NCBI GenBank assembly: GCA_949284715.1
Contig: CASDWH010000022.1
Location: 1-64,000 of the forward strand
From: an uncultured bacterium
GTDB taxonomy: Bacteria > Cyanobacteriota > Vampirovibrionia > Gastranaerophilales > Gastranaerophilaceae
Reading direction: 5' to 3'
DNA length: 64,000 bases
A model generated the notes under the pieces. It was not told the DNA's origin and made no database searches. It saw only the letters and a program-made list of their open reading frames with translations. This document shows, one piece after another, positions 5,064-47,747 of this stretch (position 1 is its first letter; every line of letters begins with the position of its first letter). The position numbers and the translations under genes were made by a program.

Positions 5064-6062
5064 ATGAATAAAGGGCAGATTTTTAAAATTCATTCAGATT
5101 TTTATTATGTCTATTATAATAACATTTTACACGAGTGCAAACTTAGAGAAATTTTAAAAAAGCAGGGAACAAAACCGTTTGTCGGAGATTTTGTGCTGTT
5201 TGAAAATACTGCAATAACAGAGGTTCTGCCCCGCGCTAATTTCATTCCAAGACCCGCAGTTGCGAATGTCGACCAGCTTATTATTGTATCGGCTCTCAAA
5301 AATCCGGATTTAAACTACTTGCAGTTAAACAGGTATATTGCATTTGCTAAATACTATAAAATAACTCCCGTTCTTTGTTTTAACAAAGATGATCTTCTTT
5401 TAGATGATGTTCTCTTAAAAGAAGTTCAATCAATCTATGCTCCGCTAAATTATAAACTCGTGTTCACCTCGGCAAAAGAAAATGACGGAATATCAGATTT
5501 GCTGGATATCCTTGCCGATAAAACATCTGCATTATGCGGAACATCCGGAGTCGGTAAATCAAGTTTAATTAACGCTATTAATCCGAAGCTATCTCTTAAA
5601 ACAAAAGAAATCAGCAAAAAAACACTTAAAGGGACACACACAACAAGACATTGCGAAATTATTCCGATTGATAATTTCCGCATAATTGACACACCGGGTT
5701 TCTCGAACCTTAAGTTTGATTTTCTCTTCCCGAGAGATGTGGACTCGCTTTTCGTTGAAATGCTTCCATTTAAAGGACACTGCAAATACCCTGACTGCCT
5801 CCATATTTCAGAAAGCGGCTGCTGCGTTTTAGAAAATATTGATAACATTCATCCGTCGCGCTACCAGAGCTATCTCACTCTTATAGAAGAGGCTGAAAAC
5901 TACAAAACCAAAGTTAAATACGAAGGAAACAAAATAGAAGGAAAAAGCAAATTCAGCGGAGAAAAAAAATTGGCAAAAATTAGTGCTAAAAGCAGGACAA
6001 CCGCAAGAAAAACACACAAACAAAGTATCTATAAGGAATTAGAAAATGGAAACATTGATTAA
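5064..6062 (+). CDS. rsgA: Ribosome small subunit-dependent GTPase A
   Basis: The 332-aa circularly permuted GTPase acts late in 30S subunit maturation. Motifs occur in the permuted order: G4 NKDD (107-110), then P-loop GTSGVGKSS (159-167), then THTTRH (switch I) and DTPGF (G3). A C-terminal zinc knuckle (GHCKYPDCLH and GCCV) follows, and the N-terminus is an OB-like fold. I chose the ATG at 5064 rather than the in-frame TTG at 5046: the extra six residues are not family-like and a -10-like hexamer lies between the two. The C-terminal tail is Lys/Arg-rich. It overlaps the polyprenyl synthase gene by 17 nt. Confidence 0.93.
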   Translation: MNKGQIFKIHSDFYYVYYNNILHECKLREILKKQGTKPFVGDFVLFENTAITEVLPRANFIPRPAVANVDQLIIVSALKNPDLNYLQLNRYIAFAKYYKITPVLCFNKDDLLLDDVLLKEVQSIYAPLNYKLVFTSAKENDGISDLLDILADKTSALCGTSGVGKSSLINAINPKLSLKTKEISKKTLKGTHTTRHCEIIPIDNFRIIDTPGFSNLKFDFLFPRDVDSLFVEMLPFKGHCKYPDCLHISESGCCVLENIDNIHPSRYQSYLTLIEEAENYKTKVKYEGNKIEGKSKFSGEKKLAKISAKSRTTARKTHKQSIYKELENGNID

Positions 6063-6921
6063 ATTAGTAAATCAAAAGCTTGATGAGTATATTGAAATTA
6101 AATATCCTAAAACTATTTTTGAAGCAATGAAATATACTCTCTCTTTAAAAGGAAAAAGACTCCGGCCGGTTATGTGTCTTGAAACAGCTAAAATTCTGGG
6201 CGGAAATATAGAATCAGCCTTACCGGCTGCCTGCGCCATAGAAATGCTGCATGTACAAAGCTTAATCCATGATGATTTACCATGTATGGATAATGATGAT
6301 TTCAGGCGGGGCAAACCTTCTAATCATAAAGTCTTTGGAGAAGCCGCCGCAGTCCTTGCCGGAGATGCTCTTATAACTTACGCTATTCAAACAATTATTG
6401 AACAATCTAAAAATCTATCGGACTCTCAAATCCTAAATATGGTTCTTGAATACTCAAAAGCTGCCGGTGTATACGGGATTATAGGCGGACAAATTGTCGA
6501 TATAGAGAGTGAAAAGAAACACTTTGAAGATGGAAAAGAAAAAACTCTTTATTATATTCATCTAAAAAAAACAGCTTCGCTCTTCAGATTAGCAGTTAAG
6601 CTTGGATGCATTGCTGCAAATGCCTCTGCTGATACAACTATAGAATTAGACGAATTTGCTCTTGGTTTTGGATTAGCATTCCAAATATACGATGATATTA
6701 TGGATGAAATTTCTTCTTTTGAAGAAATGGGTAAAACCATCGGGAAAGATAAATCTGCTCAAAAGCTGACATACACAACTTTATACGGTTTAGACAATGC
6801 AAAAAATAAATGTTTTGAACTAATTAAAAAATGTCATGATATAATTGATAAGTACGAATCGAATGTATTTGAAGAAATACTCGGGATGGTTGAACATAGA
6901 TTGGAAGCGAGGACAAATTGA
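6046..6921 (+). CDS. ispA: Polyprenyl diphosphate synthase (farnesyl/geranylgeranyl type)
   Basis: The 291-aa trans-isoprenyl diphosphate synthase condenses IPP with allylic diphosphates. The first aspartate-rich motif DDLPCMDND is at residues 76-84 with FRRGKPS just after it. The second, DDIMD, is near 225, and GKRLRP near 36-41 binds diphosphate. The four residues between the aspartate pair and third aspartate (DDLPCMD) are typical of bacterial FPP/GGPP synthases (IspA/CrtE). Length fits. It overlaps rsgA by 17 nt and the PAP2-like gene by 4 nt, so the three form an operon. Product chain length (C15 or C20) cannot be fixed by eye. Confidence 0.9.
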   Translation: METLIKLVNQKLDEYIEIKYPKTIFEAMKYTLSLKGKRLRPVMCLETAKILGGNIESALPAACAIEMLHVQSLIHDDLPCMDNDDFRRGKPSNHKVFGEAAAVLAGDALITYAIQTIIEQSKNLSDSQILNMVLEYSKAAGVYGIIGGQIVDIESEKKHFEDGKEKTLYYIHLKKTASLFRLAVKLGCIAANASADTTIELDEFALGFGLAFQIYDDIMDEISSFEEMGKTIGKDKSAQKLTYTTLYGLDNAKNKCFELIKKCHDIIDKYESNVFEEILGMVEHRLEARTN

Positions 6922-47378: not shown

Positions 47379-47429
47379 CTCAAAATATCAAAGAGAACAC
47401 ACAAAACTAGATAAAAAACAACAAAAAAT

Positions 47430-47500
47430 AGACCAGGTGGGATTCGAACCCACGACCAAAAGATTAAGAGTCTTCTGCGCTACCACTGCGCCACTGGTCT
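47430..47500 (-). tRNA. tRNA-Lys (anticodon CUU)
   Basis: The 71-nt gene folds as acceptor AGACCAG/CTGGTCT, D arm with GTGGTAGCGC, anticodon stem GAAGA/TCTTT around loop CTCTTAA (anticodon CTT), and T arm GTGGG-TTCGAAT-CCCAC. The 3' CCA is not encoded. Its 5' end also occurs in two tandem repeats immediately upstream; the same promoter should transcribe repeats and tRNA. A T-rich stretch follows the 3' end. Confidence 0.95.
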
Positions 47501-47702
47501 ATATTTAATTGTAAAACTTGTTTGGTGGTAGCGCCTGCGCTACCTTCCTCTCCTCGAACGTGACATTTAGTCACCTTCTCGTCGGCAGAGTGCCACTGGT
47601 CTATATTTAATTGTAAAACTTGCTTGGTGGTAGCGCCTGCGCTACCTTCCTCTCCTTGAACGTGACATTTAGTCACCTTCTCGTCGGCAGAGTACCACTG
47701 GT
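47499..47702 (-). repeat. Two tandem 102-bp repeats carrying tRNA-Lys 5' ends
   Basis: Copy 1 (47499-47600) and copy 2 (47601-47702) differ at three positions by my count. The tRNA 5' decamer AGACCAGTGG occurs at the tRNA itself (47491-47500), at the copy junction (47593-47602) and at the outer end (47695-47704). Each unit also contains GGTAGCGCAG, found in the tRNA D arm, and two strong hairpins (GGTAGCG/CGCTACC with a 4-nt loop; GTGAC/GTCAC with a 5-nt loop). It lies between the tRNA promoter and the tRNA. Confidence 0.9.
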
Positions 47703-47719
47703 CTATACCAACAACCGTA

Positions 47720-47747
47720 ATCATACCGCATAAATAATTTTGTGCAA
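47720..47747 (-). promoter_or_regulatory. Promoter for the repeat-tRNA-Lys transcript
   Basis: On the minus strand TTGCAC (47747-47742), 16 bp, then TATGAT (47725-47720). The predicted +1 is near 47713, only about 10 nt before the outermost copy of the tRNA 5' sequence. The 90 bp further upstream hold no gene. Confidence 0.65.

Follow-up and report, generated by a model that had tools for sequence, protein, structure and literature searches.

A lineage-specific palindromic repeat in tandem between a promoter and tRNA-Lys in a Gastranaerophilales genome

In the 64,000-nt stretch of DNA analysed here (the window), two 102-bp units on the minus strand stand in tandem upstream of an intact tRNA-Lys(CTT) gene, separating it from its conserved promoter. 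We consider it probable that this array represents two copies of a lineage-specific, DNA-level palindromic repeat, whose signature is a 45-bp strand-specific hairpin (EL). Since EL also occurs in other, dispersed palindromes, it is most likely a mobile or selfish hairpin of REP-like character, and we read EL as defining a new family of palindromic repeats, short and dispersed, whose distinctive habit is to form tandem arrays at tRNA ends. The array is not a product of chance: RNA folding of the two units gives z = -6.8, and many genomes contain the 45-nt core, with covariation among the copies.

The tRNA-Lys locus

The original prediction placed two tandem 102-bp units upstream of tRNA-Lys, with the tRNA decamer at each of three junctions and the promoter outside the outermost copy, and each of these points is borne out. 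TRF reports a tandem array at 47490-47707 (period 102, 97% matches, score 415), and the decamer AGACCAGTGG is found on the minus strand at 47491-47500, 47593-47602 and 47695-47704. Read toward the tRNA, a unit consists of X, a copy of tRNA nucleotides 1-12, followed by EL, a D-arm piece with its inverted copy, and the leader (Table 1), the second hairpin GGTAGCGCAGGCGCTACC being present in both units. What the units take from the tRNA is limited to its first ~11 nt and parts of the D arm, to which the foreign conserved hairpin is added. The tRNA itself scores 74.5 bits, and the fold predicted for the whole transcript preserves its cloverleaf, separate from the array. The other tandem array detected by TRF in the window, one of two in all, is a weak 25-bp repeat of 1.9 copies at 6037-6084.

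Table 1. Features of the tRNA-Lys locus, listed from the promoter to the tRNA (positions in the window)
Feature	Position	Strand	Basis
-35-like box TTGCAC, tRNA-Lys promoter	47742..47747	-	same box in same-genus relatives with complete upstream sequence
-10-like box TATGAT	47720..47725	-	similar boxes in same-genus relatives
X, distal unit: copy of tRNA-Lys nt 1-12, 11/12 identical	47694..47705	-	sequence match
EL hairpin, distal unit, 45 nt	47649..47693	-	covariance model R1, 67 bits; near-family-wide
Second hairpin, distal unit: D-arm piece GGTAGCGC and inverted copy GCGCTACC	47629..47646	-	
Linker, distal unit: copy of tRNA-proximal leader, CAAGTTTTACAATTAAATA	47604..47622	-	
X, proximal unit: exact copy of tRNA-Lys nt 1-12	47592..47603	-	
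EL hairpin, proximal unit, 45 nt	47547..47591	-	covariance model R1, 69 bits
Second hairpin, proximal unit	47527..47544	-	
tRNA-proximal leader; 3' end is ACAATTAAATA	47502..47520	-	
tRNA-Lys(CTT), intact	47428..47501	-	cloverleaf in whole-transcript fold

Promoter boxes closely similar to those of the window precede the same tRNA in four same-genus relatives with complete upstream sequence; a consensus promoter scanner missed the TTGCAC/TATGAT pair. The boxes lie outside the array, which is therefore expected to be transcribed within the tRNA leader. At the orthologous tRNA-Lys of the same genus, the number of units is two in the window's genome, two in G063, one (degenerate) in G111 and none in G090 and G029, while one further locus is cut by a contig end; most assemblies are drafts in which arrays often break contigs, so that these and all other copy numbers are to be taken as minima. 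Close relatives thus share this tRNA and its promoter but carry 0, 1 or 2 units, and this comparison, which had been proposed at the outset, supports the original idea of an insertion or amplification tied to the tRNA end, between promoter and tRNA. The leader end ACAATTAAATA is common to the unit-free relatives G090 and G029 and is therefore ancestral. Directly before many tRNAs of the family stands a leader motif like TTGAAAACTAAATA, weak in the window (47502-47520), which we take to resemble the cyanobacterial boxA antiterminator.

The EL hairpin and its distribution

EL is a 45-nt hairpin of the form ACTCTGCCGA-stem-TAAAT-stem-GAGAGG. An alignment of 36 distinct copies, which served as the basis of a covariance model, has the consensus A-CUCU-GCCGA-[stem]-GAC-UAAAU-GUC-[stem']-G-AGAG-G, and the aligned copies end in ACTC and GAGAGG. 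The hairpin covaries, with 91 two-sided cells against 29 in shuffles and compensatory changes in 9 of 16 pairs. The elements GCCGA, TAAAT and GAGAGG are highly conserved, implying recognition by some factor; this could be an RNA-binding protein, which would weigh against the DNA-level reading.

A covariance search had been suggested as a check in the original prediction, and the model of EL matches 166 of the 170 genomes scanned from the same family (Gastranaerophilales-type) and one of three from other families of the order, with no match in 213 genomes outside the order. Likewise, a pattern scan of named genomes finds EL almost exclusively in Candidatus Gastranaerophilales assemblies, to which the window's genome presumably belongs as well. 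Such near-universal presence in the family would also fit a host function. EL was also seen on two contigs binned as Muribaculaceae and Acinetobacter (L054 and L120), which are probably misbinned Gastranaerophilales. Rfam matched only the tRNA in the window, and a search of three tRNA loci at E<=10 gave no convincing match for EL, so that identity with an Rfam family was rejected; a virus, phage or plasmid origin was rejected as well, no EL match being found in the phage, plasmid and viral-contig sets searched.

In other genera the same foot carries an apical loop of TAAGT type. A second subfamily, exemplified by tRNA-Pro(GGG) of the window's genome, retains this head but has another foot (AAGGACTCC...TGGANGG), and its position in the tRNA is the same. 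In G063, one EL copy (L031, about 1501-1700) has its apical loop replaced by ~60 bp of other sequence next to a normal copy.

The window's genome holds six EL copies, all at tRNAs (two at Lys, one at Met and three at Leu(TAA)). Three genomes carry 41-66 copies, scattered and in palindromes; in the EL-rich genomes, which have 49 and 66 copies, the majority belong to unrelated palindromes dispersed in the genome, such as GTCATCCTGAGC-EL-GCGAAGGATC. Copies in G000, G047 and G104 were taken from whole-genome match lists and hence are free of selection for EL loci. Many copies are not near any tRNA, and the genes flanking these are randomly oriented (41/44 and 25/26).

Units at tRNA and tmRNA ends

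The location of EL was tallied for 149 instances in loci chosen for containing EL, whose tRNA fraction is not that of a random sample. Of these instances, 85 are upstream of a tRNA and on its strand, 19 are downstream of a tRNA or tmRNA and on the other strand, 26 stand at the ends of loci and 19 have other positions. In both the upstream and the downstream position, the orientation of EL is invariably toward the tRNA. X matches the tRNA's own 5' end at 59 of 76 distinct upstream sites, as against 2.3% in mismatched-tRNA controls; at 16 of 17 distinct downstream sites it is the 3' end in reverse complement, in most cases with TGG corresponding to the encoded CCA. EL lies about 8-26 nt into the tRNA-end copy, most often at 11-12, and is followed by an inverted tRNA-end copy (score >=10) in 41% of upstream units versus 6% of controls. 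A closing stem between X and its complement after EL had looked universal by eye but is only weakly above control, and the inverted tRNA-end copy describes the units better. The duplicated stretch often continues into the leader or trailer; an RNA intermediate, with X starting exactly at the mature tRNA end, was therefore rejected.

In the window's genome an additional copy of a tRNA end lies close to 10 of the 41 tRNAs, in some cases with a non-EL insert, as compared with 0 of 17 in an EL-free genome of the same family and 1 of 18 in a genome of another family, the last being a partial tRNA pseudocopy and not a unit of the EL kind. A different insert follows the tRNA-end copy at the 3' ends of tRNAs for Gly, Asp, Val, Asn and Leu (L307, L315 and L327 in the window's genome, L138, L051 and others); these inserts share CTTG...CTCG, and most of them also TTAAACGGCAATTCCG. 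At tRNA-Phe (L309) and tRNA-Asn (L314) of the window's genome, tRNA 5'-end copies carry an insert with a GCGGAACG core and then an inverted tRNA-end copy, the tRNA-Asn unit having TCCTCA closed by TGAGGA.

In outline, a unit at a tRNA or tmRNA gene comprises a copy of the gene end, EL inserted at the D stem (5' ends) or the T stem (3' ends), a tRNA-arm remnant, the inverted tRNA-end copy and a leader, with the intact tRNA behind it. Template switching or tandem duplication may have given rise to the units, which would duplicate in tandem and turn over fast. RNase P removes the 5' leader of a tRNA; the units may be neutral, since their place is outside the mature tRNA and they would be removed with that leader, which would explain why they are tolerated. 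EL itself may spread as single-stranded DNA, with no dedicated transposase identified. A more specific and less probable proposal is that throughout the family some enzyme inserts single-stranded DNA hairpins into copies of tRNA and tmRNA gene ends that fold back on themselves; the non-coding mobile element would then bring the end of its target gene with it, and the tRNA would come through each insertion intact.

The same anatomy can be read as site-specific integration, in which small circles with a tRNA-end copy integrate at tRNA ends in the manner of integrons or islands; EL would then be an attachment site in folded form and X a duplicate of the att core. X together with the restored intact tRNA and the tandem arrays does resemble att-site integration, and other types of insert occur at the same site. 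Integron attC sites are folded single-stranded hairpins in which mismatches mark one strand, and their cassettes stand in tandem. EL shares the folded hairpin, the strand-marking mismatches and the tandem arrangement; however, no attC-type core (GTTRRRY/RYYYAAC) was seen by eye in the EL alignment, and EL has neither cassette genes nor an integrase found nearby. Integration of this kind is also hard to reconcile with duplicated stretches running into leader or trailer, with tRNA remnants and inverted copies after EL, and with the many EL sites that are not tRNAs, and we regard it as unlikely. Integrative elements likewise leave partial tRNA copies adjoining the intact tRNA (PMC9897764), yet the EL units are ~100 bp long, without coding capacity or a recombinase and long element between att copies, use both 5' and 3' ends, and include an inverted tRNA-end copy.

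Folded strand, mobilisation and known elements

The stems of EL bear on another explanation, that EL is a cis-acting structured leader RNA which controls how the tRNA precursor is transcribed, folded or processed and is repeated for dosage. It would account for the position of the array between promoter and tRNA, the covarying hairpin, a leader that folds well (z -5.6) and the co-orientation of most tRNA-linked copies with their tRNA. However, mismatches in EL stems are strongly strand-asymmetric, with G.G 51 versus C.C 0 and G.A/A.G 86 versus C.T/T.C 1 (these and the following counts treat related sequences as independent), and therefore one given EL strand is the folded form. The downstream copies, antisense to the tRNA, carry the same strand signature (G.G 7 versus C.C 0), and over all copies G.T 22 stands against A.C 20, so that there is no wobble (G-U) preference. 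Judged from these sequence patterns, strand asymmetry, lack of G-U preference and random flanking genes favour single-stranded DNA folding over a leader RNA. With copies far from tRNAs, and same-genus relatives lacking units at the same tRNA, a regulatory leader appears improbable. The original prediction had also offered a structured leader with an RNase P cut at each decamer, which is not supported, as the pseudo-5' ends have no matching 3' acceptor strand and T arm; the identical elements on the opposite strand downstream of tRNAs and tmRNAs and the copies far from any tRNA led us to reject an RNase P-processed repeat RNA as the main reading.

If EL is a mobile palindromic repeat, a RAYT (Y1, HUH) transposase could be its mobiliser, with EL as a REP/REPIN family. 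Like the GTAG and CGTC families of REPs and REPINs (PMC3733652, PMC8049555), EL is a short imperfect palindrome, strand-asymmetric, intergenic, conserved in its lineage and dispersed in many extragenic copies, and Y1_Tnp genes are present in 39 of 117 genomes of the family. Nevertheless, only one of 23 Y1 loci has EL nearby, about the chance level by a rough estimate, and the EL-rich genome G020 has no Y1 match. The RAYT-like Y1 transposase gene of the window's genome (L245, G000:C1:46200-49800, at 1407-2069) is flanked by its own GTAG-ended palindromes, a REPIN-like pair GGTGCAATAAATTGCACCCTAC / GTAGGGTGCAATTTATTGCACC that is a separate palindromic family in the same genome. EL does not adjoin RAYT genes and has no GTAG or CGTC tag at its end, GTAG following some tRNA units only as tRNA sequence; moreover, it differs from REPs and REPINs in being tied to tRNA and tmRNA ends with target-derived flanks and tandem arrays. 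With 22 of 23 Y1 loci devoid of EL, mobilisation by RAYT is largely refuted and highly improbable, and we rejected RAYT/Y1 as the mobiliser; no other mobilising enzyme for EL was found. Palindromic repeats without a dedicated transposase are also known from the CGTC REPs (PMC3733652).

An ordinary decayed tRNA-array duplication or an assembly artefact, which the original prediction had allowed for and which the tandem, tRNA-derived sequence might suggest, is refuted, because the units lack most of the tRNA and combine mere pieces of it with a foreign hairpin conserved in well over 150 genomes, and the same layout in many independent assemblies makes assembly error very unlikely.

Mobile double-hairpin elements and GC clusters of mitochondria insert into tRNA genes. 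Those of fungal and algal mitochondria (PMC5910586, PMC4478555) are, like EL, small non-coding hairpins that vary among close relatives; unlike them, EL is bacterial, has a single conserved apical loop and leaves the tRNA intact because it occupies an additional, incomplete copy of that tRNA's end. The literature searched on Gastranaerophilales/Melainabacteria repeats and on the EL core sequence held nothing relevant, in keeping with the original statement that no described element of this layout was known to its author. As far as that literature shows, a repeat family that copies the end of its neighbouring tRNA or tmRNA, with one strand-specific hairpin and tandem arrays between promoter and tRNA, is undescribed. 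Short palindromic repeats in general are common in bacteria; EL, which nearly all genomes of a widespread family of gut relatives of Cyanobacteria contain, offers a testable case for the spread of short non-coding hairpins where no transposase is evident. In this family, tRNA leaders contain tRNA-like sequence, which could confuse annotation or the mapping of tRNA fragments.
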